Shown in pieces: positions 1,347-9,510 of a stretch of DNA of 64,000 nt. The notes below the pieces were generated by a model. The model worked only from the letters and a program-made list of their open reading frames with translations. It was not told the origin of the DNA and ran no database searches. The position numbers were made by a program, and so were the translations under genes. Each line of letters begins with the position of its first letter. The first letter of the stretch is position 1. This DNA is from Candidatus Methylomirabilota bacterium (lineage in GTDB: Bacteria > Methylomirabilota > Methylomirabilia > Rokubacteriales > CSP1-6), in contig DASTFB010000071.1 of NCBI GenBank assembly GCA_035709005.1, positions 1 to 64,000 of the forward strand. Reading direction: 5' to 3'.

Positions 1347-2213
1347 TCAGCTCCGCTCGGCGACCAGGCGTTCGAGGGCCTGCGCCAGCTCGGCGGGCGG
1401 GTAGCTCAGGCCGCGGTACGTGAAGGCCACACGACCGGCGCGGTCGATGAGGACGACGACGTTCTCGTGTGCGATGCTCCCACCGGCCAGTCGCTCGGCG
1501 CCGACGCGGTGAGCGGCGAGGAGGCGGTCGATGGCGGTCCGATCGCCAGTGAGCAGGCGCCAGGCGTCCCCCAGCGCCCACCGGGCGGCGGTGTCGGCGA
1601 GCGCGGAGACGGTGTCGCGCTCGGGGTCCAGCGTGACGGCGGTGAACAGAGCGCGCCCGGCAACCCGGGCCTCGACCGCCTTCAGCCTCGCGATGAGGGC
1701 CGGGCACGAGGCGTGGCAGTCCGCGTACACGAACGTCAGCGCCACGGGCCGGCCCAGCGGGGCACCAAGCTCGAAGCGCTCGCCCCGGTGATCGGTCAGC
1801 ACGGCCCGGGGCGCGGGCCGGCCCTCCCTGACGGGAACCCGACCCGCCGCCGCCACTCCGCCCGCCACGCCGCCGCCGAGCAGGAGGGCCACGACTGCGA
1901 TCAGGAAGCCGAGCGCGGCCACACTGCTCACCGCGCGGCCGCCCGGGCGGCGCGCGAAGGCGCGGAGCTCCTCGCTGTAGAAGGCGGCGACGACGAGGGC
2001 GAACAGCGGAGGCTCCAGCGTTGTCAACAGTATTGCGTCCATCCGGTAGGCGCGCGTGCTCGCATTCCAGCCGAAGCAGGTGGTCAGCACCGTGTGGGCC
2101 CAGCCACCCATGTCCGGGCCGATGAGAAGGAAGACGATGACGCCGGTGCCCCACGCCAGCGCGGCCAGCGCGAGGACGGGCGCGAACAGGGGATGGCGCA
2201 ACCAGCGGGTCAC
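1347..2213 (-). CDS. SCO1/SenC-family copper chaperone with extra N-terminal membrane segments
   Basis: SCO/PrrC proteins deliver copper to the CuA centre of oxidase subunit II. This one has the thioredoxin-fold copper site CxxxC (C166 and C170, CHASC) and the distal histidine H249 in GSIAHENVV. About 120 residues of N-terminal membrane helices precede the SCO domain, more than the usual single anchor. The start at 2213 is a GTG overlapping the ctaB stop as GTGA; a GTG at 2225 is also in frame. It lies between ctaB and the cytochrome b fusion, which fits maturation of the CuA subunit encoded upstream. Confidence 0.85.
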   Translation of the reverse strand: MTRWLRHPLFAPVLALAALAWGTGVIVFLLIGPDMGGWAHTVLTTCFGWNASTRAYRMDAILLTTLEPPLFALVVAAFYSEELRAFARRPGGRAVSSVAALGFLIAVVALLLGGGVAGGVAAAGRVPVREGRPAPRAVLTDHRGERFELGAPLGRPVALTFVYADCHASCPALIARLKAVEARVAGRALFTAVTLDPERDTVSALADTAARWALGDAWRLLTGDRTAIDRLLAAHRVGAERLAGGSIAHENVVVLIDRAGRVAFTYRGLSYPPAELAQALERLVAERS

Positions 2214-3076
2214 GCCAACCGCCACCAGGTGTCGGCGACGACACCCGCGAAGAGCAGCACCAGCCAGAGATTGGCCGCGTGAAAGGCGTGCAGCGCGAGC
2301 CGCCGGTCGGCGGGCGACTTCAACAGTTGGACGTTACGTCCGAGGAGGTAGACGCTGCCCAGCGCCGTCGGCACGACATACGCGGCGCCGGCGAGGCCGA
2401 GCACGGGCGGCAGGGCGGCGAGCCCGACGAGGCCGAGCGTGTTGACGAGAATCGACCGGGCCGTCCGCGCTTCCCCTTTGACCGCCGGCAGCATCGGGAT
2501 TCGAGCTCCCGCGTACTCGTTCTTGTACGCGATGGCCAGACTCCAGAAGTGCGACGGGCTCCAGAAGAACAGGACGCCGGCGAAAATCACCGGGGGCAGG
2601 CAGAGCTCGGGCCGGGCCAGGGAGCCGCCGCCCAGGACGGCGAAGCTGCCAGCCAGCCCGCCGATGACGACGTTGAGCCAGGACCGGCGCTTCAACCAGA
2701 CGGTGTAGATCACGACGTAGGTGAAGGCGCCCAGGAAGACGTGCAGGGCGACCAGCGGATGCAGGGCCCACGCCGCGGCAGCCACGGCCATCACGACCAG
2801 CCCCAGGCCGAGCGCCACCACGTGCCAGGGGTGAGCGATCCGCCCCGAGGGCAATGGCCGCCGGGCGGTGCGGCGCATCAGGGCATCGATATCGCGGTCC
2901 AGGTAGTGGTTCAGGGCCCCGGCGCCGGCGGCGGCGGCGACGGTGATCACGAAGAGCAGCCCGAGAGCACCGGGCGCCGGCGTGCCGGGGACCGTGCCCA
3001 GATAGCCCAGCACCGCGGCCATCCCGATGAAGACGCCGATCCGAAGCTTCAGCGACTCGACGTAAGCGGCGATCAT
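2210..3076 (-). CDS. ctaB: Protoheme IX farnesyltransferase (heme O synthase)
   Basis: This UbiA-superfamily enzyme converts heme B to heme O with farnesyl diphosphate at the inner membrane. The 288-residue protein has multiple hydrophobic helices and the polyprenyl-diphosphate binding motif NHYLDRDID near residue 61, followed by MRRTARRPLPSG, which are typical of CtaB/CyoE. The start overlaps the stop of the upstream subunit I-like gene as ATGA, so the two are probably translationally coupled. Its presence implies that the heme-copper enzyme of this operon carries heme O or heme A; no ctaA is visible in the window. Confidence 0.93.
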   Translation of the reverse strand: MIAAYVESLKLRIGVFIGMAAVLGYLGTVPGTPAPGALGLLFVITVAAAAGAGALNHYLDRDIDALMRRTARRPLPSGRIAHPWHVVALGLGLVVMAVAAAAWALHPLVALHVFLGAFTYVVIYTVWLKRRSWLNVVIGGLAGSFAVLGGGSLARPELCLPPVIFAGVLFFWSPSHFWSLAIAYKNEYAGARIPMLPAVKGEARTARSILVNTLGLVGLAALPPVLGLAGAAYVVPTALGSVYLLGRNVQLLKSPADRRLALHAFHAANLWLVLLFAGVVADTWWRLA

Positions 3077-4503
3077 CGCGTGCCGGCCCGGGCCGGGACA
3101 GGCGGCCTGCGGAGTAGCGGCAAGCCGATGTTGAGGACGAAGGCGAGGCCCCCCAGGATGGCCAGCGCGGAGCCTAGCCCCATGAGGTTCATGGCGACGA
3201 GGGCCTGGGCGTCGGCCCAGGAAAACCCCACGCTCTTGCGGGGAGCGCCGCGCGCGCCCGCCCAGTGCAGACCGATCATGATCCCGAGCAGGCCGAGGCC
3301 GTAGAGGTAGGGCTGCAGCTTCGTGAGCCATGGCTTCCACGGTTGCCGGCCCGTCAGCGCGAGCAGGGCCGGCGCGAGCCCCATGTAGGCGAGGGTCACG
3401 GCGCCCACCATCCCGTGGTAGTGGGCGGGCACGCGCGTGTCCTGGCTGAACCCGATCACGCCCATCACGCCCCCCACGGCGAAGAGCGCGAAACAGAGCA
3501 GGGTACCCGAGAAAAGCGGGCTGGCCCACGGCAGCGGCCGGGGCGCGCGGGCCATCGCCACTGCGACGGCGAGGGCCAGGGGAAGCGTGGGCCCGCCCAG
3601 GCCGGAGAACGTCACCCACGTGACCACGCGATTGGTGAGTAGCGCCTCCGGAGACCAGACGAGGTACGCGCCGGCGACGGCGAGGATGAAGGGCGCGTAG
3701 GCCCACAGGGCCCCGCGGGCGCGGGCCGGCCCCTGCGGAGCGCCCAGGGCGATCGACGTCGCGATGCCCCAGGCCGCGATCATCCCGGCCGTGTGCGTGA
3801 ACTGGAAGAGGTGGCCGGCGCCCCAGAACAGCGCGCGGAGCTGGAGCATCCGGGGCTGGGCAAAGTCGAGCCGGATCCAGGTAACCCCGAGCATCACCGT
3901 GGCAACGATCACGGCGATCGCGGCGATGGCCAGCGCCGTGGCCTCCAGCGGCTCGACGGTGGCGGCGCGACGGCGCCCGCGCCGCCAGGCGGCGAGATAC
4001 GCGCCTGCCTGGAGCGCGGCGCCGGCGAAGGCCGCCCACAGCCCGGTCCAGAAGAGAGGGTGGTCGATCACGGGGATGTAATCGTTCAGATAAGGGGCGC
4101 CCATCGCCATGGCCGCGGGCACGGCGATGAGCGCCGCCCCGCCGGCCGCGGCGCCCCAGCCCGCCCACGACAGCGCGCCCGACAGCTCGTAGTTGGAGCG
4201 CCAGGCGGCGTAGACCCACAGCACGCCGGCGAAGGCGACGAACCAGATGGTGAGCGCGAAGGTCACGTGCGCGACCAGGGCCAGGTGGAACAGGCCCGCC
4301 GACGAGCCGAGCAGCTGCACGGCCGGAGTGCGCGCGAAGGCGACGAGGATGGCGAAGATCCCTGCCGCCACCAGGGAGCCCAGGGCCAGGCTGAGCCAGG
4401 CCGTGAGGAGCCGTCGCGTAGCGGCCGGAACGGCGCGCGGCAGTTGGCCAGCCGCCGAGCGCGAGGGCTTCTCGAGCTCGATCGCCGCGAGCCGGGGCGC
4501 CAT
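3073..4503 (-). CDS. Heme-copper subunit I-like paralog lacking the CuB histidine pair
   Basis: This 476-residue polytopic protein aligns by eye with the neighbouring subunit I. It keeps the low-spin heme histidine of helix II (H79), the HxH pair of helix X (H361/H363 in VPAHYHGMVGAVTLAYMG) and one helix VI histidine (H231 in GAGHLFQFTHTAGM). The adjacent His-His pair that completes CuB in subunit I is absent; the matching stretch reads LVWSPEALLTNRVV. It therefore looks able to bind heme but not a normal binuclear centre. The gene starts one base inside the stop of subunit I (TGATG) and overlaps ctaB, so it is an integral member of the operon. It could be a structural or electron-transfer subunit; its function is unknown. 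Confidence 0.75.
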   Translation of the reverse strand: MAPRLAAIELEKPSRSAAGQLPRAVPAATRRLLTAWLSLALGSLVAAGIFAILVAFARTPAVQLLGSSAGLFHLALVAHVTFALTIWFVAFAGVLWVYAAWRSNYELSGALSWAGWGAAAGGAALIAVPAAMAMGAPYLNDYIPVIDHPLFWTGLWAAFAGAALQAGAYLAAWRRGRRRAATVEPLEATALAIAAIAVIVATVMLGVTWIRLDFAQPRMLQLRALFWGAGHLFQFTHTAGMIAAWGIATSIALGAPQGPARARGALWAYAPFILAVAGAYLVWSPEALLTNRVVTWVTFSGLGGPTLPLALAVAVAMARAPRPLPWASPLFSGTLLCFALFAVGGVMGVIGFSQDTRVPAHYHGMVGAVTLAYMGLAPALLALTGRQPWKPWLTKLQPYLYGLGLLGIMIGLHWAGARGAPRKSVGFSWADAQALVAMNLMGLGSALAILGGLAFVLNIGLPLLRRPPVPARAGTR

Positions 4504-6170
4504 CACTGCACCATCCAGATGGCAGCCAGCCACTTCCAGTTGAGGAAGTAGTAGATGACGAACGCGGCCAGGAAGACGAGGACGAGCACCATCGTGCCCG
4601 ACATGGGCGTGTGGCGCATGGAAGAGGGGATCGCGGCCAGGGGCACCTGCCCGGCCTGGTCGGGGATGCGGCGGCCGAAGAAGACAGAGGCCACGGTGAG
4701 GCCGACGTAGAGAGCCCCGCCCAGCGCGGCCAGGAGCCCACCCAGCCCCATGATCCCGAGGAAGACAAAGGCGGCGGCCTCGACGGGTGGCTGGAACATC
4801 GCGCCGGTGAACTGCACGTCCCAGTGGCGCCGGGGCACGGCGTACGATCCGGCCGTCGTCATGCCCGCGGAGAAGACGGCCACCCCGAGCCCGAAGGCGT
4901 AGACCTGGAACGTGGCCAGCCGCGGAGCCACGATGCGCCGGCGCCAGATCAGCGGCACGACGTAGTAGGTGAGGCCCATGAAGGCCAGCGTGGTGCCGGC
5001 GACGACGGTGGCGTGGAAGTGGCCGGGAATGCGCAGCGTGTTGTGGGAGATGATGTTGACCTGCTCGGCCCCGAAGGTCACGCCGGTGATGCCGCCCATG
5101 AAGCCGAAGAGCACCAGCGACAGCATCAGGGCCGCAAACCCAGGGTTCCCCCATGGTGCCTTGGCCAGCCACTCGAAGAGTCCCTTCGACAGGCCGTGCC
5201 GCCGCTGGGCCACCTCGACGGACGCCGGGACCGTCATCCCGTGGATCATGCTGGCGAGGACGGCGAGGTACATGCCATAGGAGGTGTTCCAGATCTTCCA
5301 CGCCGGCGACACTTGCGGATCGACGAGCAGATGGTGGGCCGAGGCCAGGTTGATGAAGAGGATGTAGAGCACGAAGGCCCAGCGGCTGACCTTCTCGTTG
5401 ACGGGCGTGGCGCCCACCGTGAGGGTGGCCAGGAGGTACCAGACCGACACCATCGCCGCAACGTTGATCTGCTGCGAGGGATGGCCGAGTCCCCACCAGA
5501 GGAGGCGGTACATGCCCGCGTCGAGGTTCTGGACGATACCGAGCGACCACAGCCAGGTGGGGATGTAGATGATCGCGCCGTGGGCCAGCGTGACCACGGC
5601 GATGATGGCTGCCGTGAGGGCCCCGAACGTCACCAGCGGGATCGAGCCCTGATAGGTCCGCTCGGCCCGAGCCACCACCAGGGTGGCGAAGAAGTTCAGC
5701 ACGCCGACGAGGGCGCCGACGGCGAACAGGATCCAGCCCAGGTAGAAGTAGTGCACGGCTTGCATCGGCACGTAGGAGGTGAACATGACGTCGGCACCGC
5801 CCCGCAGCACGGCCACGTCGATGAGCAGCGAGCCCGCCACCATCAGCCCGAACCCCACCCAGCCCACCCGCGGCCAGGCCACGCGGCTGCCCAGCACGAT
5901 GGGCGCGGCGAAGTAGAGGATGGCGATCTCGAAGAAGATGATCCAGAAGATCAGCATGTTGATGCCGTGGAAGGTGAGGGCGCGGTAATACATCGTCGGA
6001 TCGAGCAGGTGAACGGCCGGCCACCGCGTGAGCAGGACCAGCAGCGCGGCGATCCCGCCGAAGAGGATGGCCAGCACGCCGGCCACGGCGTGGACCTTGA
6101 TGAGGCGCTCGGCGGTCAGGTGGACCCGGAAGCCGGTGTGGGCACAGGTGCGGAAGGCCGACGCGTCCAT
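4503..6170 (-). CDS. B-type heme-copper subunit I without the active-site tyrosine; probable NO reductase
   Basis: This 555-residue polytopic protein is the catalytic subunit. Heme and CuB ligands are present: H68 for low-spin heme, H230 plus H279/H280 for CuB, and H384/H386 in IPGHFHATVV. The overall pattern resembles ba3-type (B family) oxidases, for example AHHLLVDPQVSPAWK. However, the helix VI motif that reads HPxVY in O2 reductases reads HPSQQ here, so the cross-linked tyrosine is replaced by Q234. Loss of that tyrosine is characteristic of the nitric oxide reductases of this superfamily, including the CuA-containing eNOR-type families. I chose the ATG at 6170 because GGAGG precedes it and overlaps the subunit II stop. 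The NO reductase assignment is inference from one key residue and the operon context. Confidence 0.78.
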   Translation of the reverse strand: MDASAFRTCAHTGFRVHLTAERLIKVHAVAGVLAILFGGIAALLVLLTRWPAVHLLDPTMYYRALTFHGINMLIFWIIFFEIAILYFAAPIVLGSRVAWPRVGWVGFGLMVAGSLLIDVAVLRGGADVMFTSYVPMQAVHYFYLGWILFAVGALVGVLNFFATLVVARAERTYQGSIPLVTFGALTAAIIAVVTLAHGAIIYIPTWLWSLGIVQNLDAGMYRLLWWGLGHPSQQINVAAMVSVWYLLATLTVGATPVNEKVSRWAFVLYILFINLASAHHLLVDPQVSPAWKIWNTSYGMYLAVLASMIHGMTVPASVEVAQRRHGLSKGLFEWLAKAPWGNPGFAALMLSLVLFGFMGGITGVTFGAEQVNIISHNTLRIPGHFHATVVAGTTLAFMGLTYYVVPLIWRRRIVAPRLATFQVYAFGLGVAVFSAGMTTAGSYAVPRRHWDVQFTGAMFQPPVEAAAFVFLGIMGLGGLLAALGGALYVGLTVASVFFGRRIPDQAGQVPLAAIPSSMRHTPMSGTMVLVLVFLAAFVIYYFLNWKWLAAIWMVQ

Positions 6171-6180
6171 GCTGGTCCTC

Positions 6181-6705
6181 CTACTCCACGATGATCTTGC
6201 CGACCATGGTGTGGTGCCCGATGCCACAGAACTCGTTGCAGACGGCGTAGACGTCGCCCGCTTCGGTCGGCGTCACCGTCAGCACGTATTCGTAACCGGG
6301 CAGGACCATGAAGTTCAGGTTGAGCGGGAAGAGGGAAAAGCCGTGCACGAGATCCGTCGATGACAGGTGCAGCCGGTAGGTCTCGCCCTTCTTGAACTTG
6401 AGCACGGGGTACCAGGCCCACATCCGGCCCAGCATGTACACGTCCTCGCCGGGCGGCGCGGCCACGACGGGCACGCCGCTGTCCTCGCCCACCTTGTGCT
6501 TCGCCACGAAGGCCTCGACCTTGTCCTGGAAGCCGGCGGCGGTGATGCGGTAGGTCTCGAACGACGGGTTCTGCTTTCCGGTGAGGTGCCACAGCGGCAT
6601 CATCGCGAAGAGCACGAGACACCAGACGAGCGCGATGCCGATCCACACTTTCTCGGAGGGATCGACTTTCTTCCACCACACACCCTGCAGCGTCTGGAGA
6701 CTCAT
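6181..6705 (-). CDS. Heme-copper enzyme subunit II with intact CuA site
   Basis: This 174-residue membrane-anchored cupredoxin has one N-terminal helix (about residues 20-40) and a complete CuA site: H121, C156, E158, C160, H164 and M167 in VCNEFCGIGHHTM. The single-anchor, short form is typical of B-type subunit II. An intact CuA means that the enzyme takes electrons from a soluble or membrane cytochrome c or cupredoxin, unlike cNOR and qNOR, which lack CuA. It is cotranscribed ahead of subunit I with a 10-base gap. Confidence 0.9.
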   Translation of the reverse strand: MSLQTLQGVWWKKVDPSEKVWIGIALVWCLVLFAMMPLWHLTGKQNPSFETYRITAAGFQDKVEAFVAKHKVGEDSGVPVVAAPPGEDVYMLGRMWAWYPVLKFKKGETYRLHLSSTDLVHGFSLFPLNLNFMVLPGYEYVLTVTPTEAGDVYAVCNEFCGIGHHTMVGKIIVE

Positions 6706-6715
6706 GGCGCGCTCC

Positions 6716-6874
6716 TCAGCGGGCCAGCGGGATGCTGGCGATCTCGAGCAGTCCCCAGATGGTGTAGAAGACGATGGGAACGGCCAGGCCGATCACGAGC
6801 AGGATGAACGGATTGTCGAAGACGGCCTGCATGAGCGGCGGGCGCGACTGCGGCTCTCGATCCTCAGTGGCCAT
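6716..6874 (-). CDS. Small single-helix subunit of the heme-copper enzyme
   Basis: A 52-residue protein with a polar N-terminus (about 18 residues) and one transmembrane helix (FILLVIGLAVPIVFYTIWGL). It is the first gene of the operon, starts at an ATG preceded by GGAGGGAG, and ends 10 bases before subunit II. Size, topology and position match the IIa-type small subunit of ba3-like enzymes. I see no other motif. Confidence 0.75.
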   Translation of the reverse strand: MATEDREPQSRPPLMQAVFDNPFILLVIGLAVPIVFYTIWGLLEIASIPLAR

Positions 6875-6925
6875 GACTCCCTCCTTCACCACGCTGCCAG
6901 CGTAACGAGAACCGCGGCGGCGGCT

Positions 6926-6941
6926 TATGACACAGGTCATA
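6926..6941. promoter_or_regulatory. CRP/FNR-superfamily palindrome upstream of the NO reductase-like operon
   Basis: TATGAC-ACAG-GTCATA is a perfect 16-bp inverted repeat, 52-67 bases upstream of the first operon gene. It resembles the published HcpR motif (TTGAC, four bases, GTCAA), which belongs to a CRP/FNR-family regulator of nitrosative stress. No CRP/FNR gene is visible in the window, so the cognate regulator is unknown. Confidence 0.6.
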
Positions 6942-6998: not shown

Positions 6999-7646
6999 TC
7001 AGAGCAGGCGGTGGCGGTTCGCATACGCGACCGCCTCCAGCCGGCTGTGGAGACCGAGCTTGGCCAGGATGTGCTGCACGTGGTTCTTCACGGTGGCCCG
7101 GCTCACGTGCAGCCGCTCGGCGATGTCGGCGGTTCGCACGCCGCGGGCGAGGAGCTGCAATATTTCGACCTCCCGCCGGGTCAGCGTCTCGGCCGCCGGG
7201 TCCTGGGGCTCGGCCGCCGCGGTCAGGCGCTCGTGAACCAGGCGGACCAGCTCTCGGGTTGCCGTTACGTCGCGAAACAAGTGTACGCTGACGGCCCCCG
7301 AGCCCGGACCGGGCGCGGTCAGCACGCTGATGTTGAGCCAGACCGGGCGGCCAGCCTTCGTCGTCGTACGCATGTCGAAGGCCTGCACCGACTCGCCGAG
7401 GCCCAGCAGCGTCGTGACCTGACAGCCCGGGTAGCAGACGCGGTTGGCGTGCTCGTCGTAGCCGCGCAAGACCTCACAACAGGCTCGTCCGATGACCTCT
7501 CGAGCTGGATAGCCGAGGATCTTCTCGGCCGCCCGGTTCCAGAGACGGAGGCGGCCGTCGGCGCCGACGACGAAGGCGCCGTCGCCCGCCCGCTCCAGGG
7601 CTCGGGCGAGCCAGGTGTCCCCGCTGGCAGGTATCGGCCCGGGCAT
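6999..7646 (-). CDS. PAS-LuxR transcriptional regulator with a cysteine-rich PAS domain
   Basis: This 215-residue protein has an N-terminal PAS domain (about 12-125) and a C-terminal LuxR/GerE helix-turn-helix (about 150-215; LTRREVEILQLLARG and SRATVKNHVQHILAKL). The PAS domain carries four closely spaced cysteines (CC, then VCYPGC, about residues 51-73) that could bind metal or sense redox state. There is no receiver domain. It sits between the nine-heme cytochrome and the heme-copper operon on the same strand, so it is a candidate local regulator. Start is the first ATG after an in-frame stop near 7770. The signal sensed is unknown. Confidence 0.85.
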   Translation of the reverse strand: MPGPIPASGDTWLARALERAGDGAFVVGADGRLRLWNRAAEKILGYPAREVIGRACCEVLRGYDEHANRVCYPGCQVTTLLGLGESVQAFDMRTTTKAGRPVWLNISVLTAPGPGSGAVSVHLFRDVTATRELVRLVHERLTAAAEPQDPAAETLTRREVEILQLLARGVRTADIAERLHVSRATVKNHVQHILAKLGLHSRLEAVAYANRHRLL

Positions 7647-7836: not shown

Positions 7837-9510
7837 TCAGGCCGGACGCCGGCGGTGCCAGAGCCGCCAGACGCCGTAGACGGCACCCAGCACGGCCAGC
7901 ACCATCAGCGGGCCGGTGAAGATCATGAAGAGCGTTTGCTTGCGCACCGTTTCCGCCGAGCGGAGCCGTTCGGCCTCGTCGCGGATCGAGGCGAGGTGGC
8001 CCAGCACGTCGGCGTAGCCGTACCACCACGCGTAGTCCGGGCTCATGTGGAAGGCGCCCTTGTAGCTCTTGAGCGCCGAGAAGAAGAACATGTCGAAGTA
8101 GTCGCGCTCGATGGGCGTGACGTCGTAGTAGAGGCTGGCCGGCGAGTGGAAGGCCAGCCCGCCTGGCAGCTCGACGGCAGTGAAGCGCGGTCCGGACAGG
8201 AGCCCGGCCGACACCTGGGCGTGACTGGGCCGGATGAGGCCGTCGCGATAGAGCCCGCTCAGGATGTCGCGGGCCTCGACGACGAGGGCGTCACCGGCCA
8301 GCTTGTGGGCGTCCGCCGACTCCAGATACCCACGGGCCTTGTCCTCGGAGTGGCAGGTGAGGCACACCTTGATCATCTCGTTCCGCTTGGCCAAATTCTC
8401 GGGTTCGATCGTGATGTCCTTGAGCTCCCCCAGGGCCGCCTGCGTCCCCATGCCCCAGATGATCTTCCGCGTCATGTTGTGGCTGACCGTGCGAGTCCCG
8501 TCGTCGCCGACGTAGAGCATGTGGCAGTAGGCGCAGGTCGGCGCGTCCCAGCGGGCCTGCGTCATCGAGGTGTTCCAGTTCCAGTCCTTGCCGCGGGCCA
8601 CGTAGATCGACCCGTGCTTCGACGACATGTAGGCCTCGTAGTTCGGGTGGTCGGGGCCCATGTGACAGGTGTAGCAGGCCTCCGGCTTGCGGGCTTCTTC
8701 CAGGTGGAAGGCGTGCCGGGTGTGGCAGGCGATACAGCCGTTGCGGATGGTCAGGCTCGAGGTGTCGACGTACTTCTTCTCCTCCTCGCTCCAGTACTTG
8801 GCGTCGGTGGCGCCGGCCTGAGCGTGGCAGGGATCGCACCCCATCTCCATGACCTTACGCGGCATGTGCTTGTAGTGCGGCACGCCGATGTTGCGTTCCC
8901 AGTTGATGCCCAGGTCGCCGGGCCCCGGCCCGTAGGAGTGGCCGGCGTCGAGCACGTGCTCCTTGTAGATCTGCTGGTGACAGGCCCCGCACGTCGTCTC
9001 CGGCACCCGGCCTTTGGTCGCCATGATCTCGTCGTGGTCGGTGCCGTGGCAGCCGGCGCAGGTCATCTGCGCCTGCGGGAACGTCACGCGGCGATTCTGC
9101 ACGCCAGGGCGTCCCATCGCGCTCGTCTCGAACTGCCGGACGATCTCCGGGTTGGTCTTGCGATGGCATTCGGCGCAGGTCTTCTGGTCCAGGACGCCGC
9201 GCGGGACGTCCGCGCGGATCTTGGCCGGCGGCGGCGGCACGGCCTGCAGGTACGCGTGAATGTCGCGCACCTCGGCGTCGCTGACCACCTGGGCGGGAAA
9301 GGGCGGCATGATCCCCCGCGGCTTCCGGACCTGCTGGATGAAGACGTCGACGCTGAGTTTGCTATTGGCCAGGGTGGGACCGACTCCTCCGCGTCCGCTG
9401 GCGCCGTGGCAGCCGAGGCAGCCCCGGCGGATATAAAGATCGGCTCCGGGCTCGGCTGGAGTCTGGGCGAGCGCAGCAGCCGGCCACGCAGCCACCCAGA
9501 CGACGAACAC
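7837..9510 (-). CDS. Nine-heme, membrane-anchored HAO-family cytochrome c
   Basis: This 557-residue protein has nine CxxCH motifs. The first (CLGCH) lies in a small cytochrome c domain with a likely Met ligand (IMPPFP). The other eight (CAECH, CAGCH, CGACH, CDPCH, CIACH, CYTCH, CAYCH, CLTCH) and the motif MGPDHPNYEAYMSSKHG match the octaheme hydroxylamine oxidoreductase family. A C-terminal helix (TLFMIFTGPLMVLAVLGAV) anchors it. The N-terminus is a signal peptide ending near ALAQ; the GTG at 9510 gives a short one, and in-frame codons upstream (RRRLLRVFL) suggest that the true start may be a CTG farther up. HAO-family enzymes oxidise hydroxylamine or reduce nitrite or hydroxylamine. Direction here depends on whether the P460 cross-link tyrosine is present; DYAWWYGY is a candidate region that needs alignment. 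Confidence 0.85.
   Translation of the reverse strand: MFVVWVAAWPAAALAQTPAEPGADLYIRRGCLGCHGASGRGGVGPTLANSKLSVDVFIQQVRKPRGIMPPFPAQVVSDAEVRDIHAYLQAVPPPPAKIRADVPRGVLDQKTCAECHRKTNPEIVRQFETSAMGRPGVQNRRVTFPQAQMTCAGCHGTDHDEIMATKGRVPETTCGACHQQIYKEHVLDAGHSYGPGPGDLGINWERNIGVPHYKHMPRKVMEMGCDPCHAQAGATDAKYWSEEEKKYVDTSSLTIRNGCIACHTRHAFHLEEARKPEACYTCHMGPDHPNYEAYMSSKHGSIYVARGKDWNWNTSMTQARWDAPTCAYCHMLYVGDDGTRTVSHNMTRKIIWGMGTQAALGELKDITIEPENLAKRNEMIKVCLTCHSEDKARGYLESADAHKLAGDALVVEARDILSGLYRDGLIRPSHAQVSAGLLSGPRFTAVELPGGLAFHSPASLYYDVTPIERDYFDMFFFSALKSYKGAFHMSPDYAWWYGYADVLGHLASIRDEAERLRSAETVRKQTLFMIFTGPLMVLAVLGAVYGVWRLWHRRRPA

Follow-up and report, generated by a model that had tools for sequence, protein, structure and literature searches.

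A perfect palindrome, TATGAC-N4-GTCATA (TATGACACAGGTCATA), at positions 6926 to 6941 of the 64,000-nucleotide stretch of DNA analysed here (the window) is a real gene switch conserved in related genomes; a sensor-type regulator not characterised before probably works through it to turn on genes for the respiration and detoxification of nitrogen oxides. The explanation that we favour, with high confidence, is that the palindrome, which has no strand, is the predicted class II site of an activator from an uncharacterised FNR-like clade recognising TATGAY-N4-RTCATA. A dimer of the CRP/FNR-family protein encoded in the same genome at G000:C31:68620-69318 (the C31 regulator) would bind the palindrome through this code, recruit RNA polymerase in class II fashion from about 41.5 bases upstream of the transcription start, and switch on an operon for an NO-reductase-like heme-copper enzyme in which the active-site tyrosine is replaced by glutamine. 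The same regulator would control DUF2249/ScdA_N/NnrS-like genes, genes for nitrate-reductase-like molybdenum enzymes and c-type cytochromes and, in some relatives, nirK. We infer that the C31 regulator is the protein that binds and that it activates rather than represses, its signal being presumably NO or another nitrogen oxide. What the analysis establishes is that the site exists, is conserved and is correctly spaced from a -10 element, which genes lie nearby, and that site and regulator gene co-occur.

The palindrome lies exactly where the initial annotation had placed it, 52-67 bases upstream of the A of the ATG at 6874 (minus strand), inside the 124-bp gap between the end of a LuxR-PAS gene at 6999 and the 52-amino-acid first gene of the operon. 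It is the single match in the window at two or fewer mismatches, a tolerance at which dinucleotide shuffles gave a mean of 0.27. Base composition predicts 0.00025 perfect matches per 64 kb and 0.018 per 4.59-Mb genome, and the 4.59-Mb genome that holds the window contains three, together with two one-mismatch sites. Among 57 genomes of the family, 42 perfect sites were found in 22 genomes versus 2 for the reversed pattern, and the relaxed form TATGAY-N4-RTCATA gave 62 sites versus 2 for its control. The three perfect sites against 0.018 expected, and the 42 against 2, rule out a chance palindrome.

The operon is read from the minus strand. Its open reading frames encode, in order, a small 52-amino-acid protein with one hydrophobic stretch (6716-6874; homologs of ∼51-62 amino acids occupy this place in the relatives), a CoxB-like subunit with a CuA-type motif identified by reading (6181-6705; PF00116), a COX1-family catalytic subunit, ba3-like by sequence (4503-6170; profile and PDB sequence search), a second COX1-family protein of 476 amino acids (3073-4503; PF00115, 47 bits), a UbiA-family, heme O synthase-like protein (2210-3076; PF01040) and a putative SCO-like protein named by reading (1347-2225). 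The catalytic subunit, present in 10 of the 57 family genomes, has a ba3 oxidase as its best PDB match by sequence (1.5e-40) and reads GHPSQQ, with glutamine at the tyrosine position. This glutamine (GHxSQQ) was found, with the HH and HFH motifs retained, at 10/10 family loci where the region aligned; the tyrosine is retained in the HPIVY oxidase of L131, L133 and L134. Loss of the active-site tyrosine with retention of the histidine ligands points, by sequence, to an NO reductase. We take bNOR to be the name given to such enzymes with a ba3-nearest (B-family) subunit I; a literature search for this name found no description. In the part of PMC8756737 available to us, glutamine is given as the mark of eNOR. 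A sequence search of the PDB at E 0.01 found no relative of the second COX1-family protein, which is without the His-His pair, GHLFQF and AHYHG replacing the usual motifs, and is kept beside NOR in several relatives. Upstream of the LuxR-PAS gene, domain matches identify a multiheme c-type cytochrome (7837-9510, minus strand), homologs of which occur in 4 of the 42 motif-site contexts, with transcription pointing away from the site. NirK is absent from the same genome, and cytochrome d1 gave a weak match only; both results, which leave it without an evident NO source of its own, count against the favoured explanation.

Twelve operon upstream regions could be compared (the window, L051-L058, L130, L132 and L138; the sequences of L050, L059 and L060 do not cover it), and the site precedes the first gene in all 12, nine times perfectly and three times with one mismatch. 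In these regions conservation reaches 98% in the arms, against 50-67% at the four central bases and 51-56% in the flanks. A -10-like hexamer, TACGCT (6899-6904, minus strand), begins 21 bases past the palindrome, which by arithmetic places the transcription start near 6892 and the operator near -41.5; a Shine-Dalgarno-like AAGGAGG was recognised by reading at 6880-6886 (minus strand). TA stands at offset 22 in 11 of the 12 upstream regions and at 21 in the window, as part of a full TAnnnT in 10/12. Among all 42 perfect sites, 23 have TAnnnT at offset 21/22 in one orientation, versus a mean of 0.14 for each other offset. CRP/FNR activators of class II bind near -41.5, overlapping the -35 region. 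The recurrent TA or TAnnnT at 21-22 bases therefore indicates the geometry of a class II CRP/FNR activator, the operator centre falling at -41.5/-42.5 by arithmetic from the -10 spacing.

The gene that adjoins the palindrome in the window encodes a rival regulator, a PAS-GerE (LuxR-type) protein (6999-7646, minus strand; domain matches), and L053 and L138 carry homologs close to their operons. NarL/FixJ-type proteins bind sites of 7-2-7 geometry, and the palindrome could be read as such a site belonging to this neighbour. We consider this highly improbable: the gene accompanies the operon at 3 of 13 loci and adjoins the site in the window only, it lies within 2 kb of one (L138) of the 41 other perfect sites, the site is conserved at sampled loci that have no LuxR-PAS gene, and the sites track the CRP/FNR gene instead. 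Its rarity at operon loci thus weakens its candidacy as owner of the site. The PAS domain of this protein carries a CC...C...C pattern, and its homologs close to the operons of G037 and G045 are ∼52% identical to it.

The genome-wide scan suggested in the initial annotation, which had named a lack of other occurrences before nitrogen or redox genes, or of a CRP/FNR regulator, as grounds for dropping the idea, recovered both such sites and such a regulator. Besides the window (C71), perfect sites are found at C31:69317 and C27:5120. The C31 site overlaps the end of the CRP/FNR gene 68620-69318, the stop codon following it, and stands upstream of a DUF2249 gene and of another that is small and COX1-like. 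The C27 site is upstream of genes for a c-type cytochrome/EB_dh protein and a molybdenum oxidoreductase homologous (44%) to a NarG/DMSO-reductase-II-like protein of L127; TAnnnT is missing from the expected offset at this site, which counts against the favoured explanation. One of the one-mismatch sites (C87; TATGATGCCGGTCATA) precedes genes for an HCO/NnrS-like membrane protein (PF00115, 35.1 bits for a cut-off of 34.8; NnrS-like by reading) and a radical SAM protein (TIGR04053). Two-mismatch sites, 15 of the 20 found at this tolerance, were excluded, the reversed control giving 13 at ≤2 mismatches; many of the 15 read GATGAC...GTCATC.

The other one-mismatch site (TATGACTTAGGTCACA) lies directly 3' of the CRP gene on C14, and the genome encodes three CRP/FNR proteins, on C14, C31 and C60, so that the C14 or the C60 protein might bind the palindrome instead. 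That location is what speaks for such a reading, which we regard as extremely improbable: the C14 helix VRELVAR is of the CRP-like Arg-Glu type, expected to prefer G, and C60 has no Glu at that helix position (TTRARVS). The C14 site (G000:C14:19235-19250; L025:14236) is itself a hybrid, TGTGAC-N4-GTCATA, located between the CRP gene with the Arg-Glu helix and the gene for a 217-amino-acid protein that gave no Pfam match.

Across the 57 family genomes, 41 of the 42 perfect sites fall outside called genes, the calls being those of a home-made gene caller that overlooked certain short genes or misplaced their starts (e.g., at L092 and L095). A tblastn search with 21 reference proteins found one of them downstream of 35/42 sites; as the reference proteins were themselves drawn from motif sites, this figure shows coherence, not enrichment. 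The downstream genes are the NOR operon (9 sites), DUF2249/DUF1858/ScdA_N/NnrS-like genes (15), c-type cytochrome, molybdenum-enzyme or multiheme genes (9, L123 being weak), hemerythrin (1) and an Fe-S protein (1), where DUF2249 is, we assume, the same as COG4309. The remaining 7/42 sites have no reference gene downstream and count against the favoured explanation. Evidence independent of that search comes first from G023, where a single palindrome is common to the NOR operon and a nirK gene transcribed divergently from it (TIGR02376, 364.7 bits, cut-off 296.3). ScdA_N, the domain at the N-terminus of the repair protein RIC, is a partial match at the targets, below the full-length cut-off. COG4309 was tied to NO reductase in the accessible text of Rodionov et al. 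(PMC1274295), and DUF2249 was linked to denitrification in haloarchaea in that of PMC11218638. Taken together, these gene contexts support, at the level of sequence, a CRP/FNR-type operator linked to N-oxide genes. The operator likewise lends the operon independent support for an NO-related function, short of proof of enzyme activity, as the initial annotation had proposed and as both the conservation of the site and its N-oxide and redox gene context bear out. The motif also recurs in two genomes next to a shared gene (MKTAVIYSDEW...; L142:3994 and L143:4069) that has no known N-oxide gene in its vicinity.

The C31 protein belongs to the CRP/FNR superfamily, with PF00027 (68.9 bits) and PF13545 (54.1 bits) both over cut-off; PF13545 has 7 matches in this genome, 4 of them over cut-off, and the C23 protein is GntR-like by reading. 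Orthologs occur in 20/57 family genomes. Of these 20 genomes, 17 contain the motif, versus 5 of the 37 without an ortholog (Fisher p 1.5e-7, the genomes being related and hence non-independent), and 34/42 perfect sites are in genomes carrying the regulator. In 15 of the 20, the CRP gene has a site with ≤1 mismatch no more than 3 kb away. Exceptions that count against the favoured explanation are three ortholog genomes without a perfect site (G024, G036 and G042, of which G024 and G042 have the Y/R form) and five genomes with a perfect site and no ortholog (G003, G030, G033, G040 and G041, three of them 71-77% complete). The recognition helix of the C31 regulator is TTVETTIR, and the orthologs inspected all read TTVET[TA]IR; the helix of FNR is VETISR. 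Cysteine is found in a single alignment column, present in 11/15 orthologs; a four-cysteine FNR arrangement is thus absent and, since this sole column is not invariant, an FNR-type cluster is unlikely in the C31 regulator. DNR and NnrR, which belong to the CRP/FNR family and regulate nir and nor genes, are likewise without the FNR-type cysteine cluster. His140 and His179 are retained in 15/15 aligned orthologs; His139 of DNR, in DNR's own numbering, is cited for heme coordination in the accessible part of PMC8510549. From the target genes, we infer NO as a candidate effector. A structure model (pLDDT 85) gave generic CRP-like matches and no ligand clue; Foldseek placed the HcpR of P. gingivalis (9day) at rank 30, and full-length rmsd values of 11-13 reflect a different domain arrangement.

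With a profile built from 15 orthologs (A1), 305 related stretches were found in named genomes and 80 were kept: 15 of Rokubacteria type, the rest mainly from Nitrospirae, Chloroflexi and deltaproteobacteria. At the 65 loci from other phyla, the strict C-form gave a weak signal, with 3 perfect sites versus 0 in five controls, and 8 versus 0-5 at ≤1 mismatch. TATGAY-N4-RTCATA (≤1 mismatch) near the CRP genes stood out, giving 14 versus 0-1 for four control patterns. This Y/R form was chosen after inspection of those loci, so that a count in 24 genomes is the fairer test: it yielded 76 sites versus 13 for the control, 4/24 genomes having none, in a non-random set picked from these loci. Among the 23/76 sites read in the DNA (every one of the 12 in G116, plus others picked by hand), 18 have TAnnnT at 21/22. 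G116, the genome of L213, titled Nitrospira sp., has one site upstream of norC-norB, and its NorB matches the cNOR 3o0r at 4e-117. According to the accessible text of PMC8510549, an NO reductase gene had not been identified in Nitrospira; these norCB genes (L273:3063-5252) come from a metagenome-assembled genome whose label or binning may be faulty. In five Chloroflexi regions the site is beside tRNA-Ser genes, not N-oxide genes, which counts against the favoured explanation. In these five, of 10 Chloroflexi regions read (L276:2973, L277:3049, L282:3022, L281:2993 and L283:3024), the motif and a correctly spaced -10 stand beside or between tRNA-Ser(CGA) and tRNA-Ser(GGA), pointing antisense; a GC-rich hairpin follows, possibly part of a small RNA of ∼100 nt or perhaps a tRNA terminator. 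The hairpin showed no covariation, and an Rfam search returned tRNA and SRP RNA only.

The palindrome had been described as HcpR-like, on account of its geometry, and a CRP/FNR gene with a matching recognition helix, together with hits at nitrogen genes, had been named as what would support this. The CRP/FNR type, the N4 geometry and the N-oxide and redox targets held; the attribution to HcpR was not supported. The hcp gene (PF03063) was found in 0/57 family genomes, the same search being positive in 5/14 control genomes, and the TTTGAC form characteristic of HcpR/FNR-like sites, searched as TTTGACNNNNGTCAAA, in 0/57. The conserved sites read TATGAY, where the known HcpR motifs are wyTTGACnnnnGTCAArw, wTGTGAnnnnnnTCACAw or GTAACnnnnGTTAC, the first being the delta-proteobacterial motif in the accessible text of Rodionov et al. 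2005 (PMC1274295), against which the A-for-T difference pointed out earlier is correct. HcpR1 has Ser/Pro or Arg at residue 180 followed by Glu 181; the helix here has Val-Glu, position 180 being assigned by eye against CRP/FNR helices. HcpR proper was therefore rejected on the absence of hcp and of TTTGAC, the A for T and the Val-Glu helix. A true HcpR with a half-site that had changed over time from TTGAC to TATGAC would share the N4 geometry and the TGAC core, and nar genes are within the HcpR regulons of Geobacter and Desulfuromonas in the accessible part of PMC1274295; given hcp in 0/57 genomes, no TTTGAC sites and Val at position 180, it is very improbable.

Returning to the favoured explanation, one wider reading, which we hold to be somewhat better than an even bet, joins these data: an orthologous group of cysteine-poor activators resembling FNR and spread over several phyla (Rokubacteria, Nitrospirae, Chloroflexi and some deltaproteobacteria), with its own code, TATGAY-N4-RTCATA, would serve as the N-oxide switch of lineages without an hcp-type HcpR. 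In the genome studied here it would drive the Tyr-less ba3-like NO reductase, in Nitrospirae cNOR, and among Anaerolineae perhaps a small RNA encoded between two tRNA-Ser genes. The operator ties a Tyr-less heme-copper enzyme, easily taken for a terminal oxidase, to N-oxide genes by its regulation, beyond the enzyme sequence. The site provides a searchable 16-base tag for N-oxide genes of uncultured soil and groundwater bacteria, and the change of specificity (A at position 3) is testable against the CRP/FNR recognition code. Literature searches for the motif string and related regulators, with most subscription papers outside their coverage, turned up no account of TATGAC.

Several known systems resemble this one. 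With FNR the C31 regulator shares the class II geometry and a helix, VET..R, resembling VETISR; it differs in the single, non-invariant cysteine column of its orthologs and in reading TATGAY, not TTGAT. The enzyme, like eNOR and other CuA NORs in the accessible part of PMC8756737, has glutamine replacing the cross-linked tyrosine and a cupredoxin subunit II, but its subunit I is nearest ba3 (B-family) by sequence. DNR and NnrR are also CRP/FNR regulators of nir/nor, with the COG4309-NO reductase tie, but have their own motifs, CTTGATnnnnATCAAG and ctTTGcgnnnncgCAAag (both from the accessible text of PMC1274295); DNR (3dkw) is outside the nearest solved structures of the C31 regulator by sequence, and NnrR was assigned to a Nitrospira metagenome-assembled genome via known NnrR motifs in the available part of PMC8510549. 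HcpR1, as far as described in the accessible text of PMC1274295, has in common with the C31 system the CRP/FNR family, the N4 palindrome, the TGAC core, an N-oxide regulon and Glu 181; in contrast, the C31 system has A rather than T as third base, Val rather than Ser/Pro at 180 and no hcp, and its core targets are alternative NO reductase, DUF2249 and molybdenum-enzyme genes.
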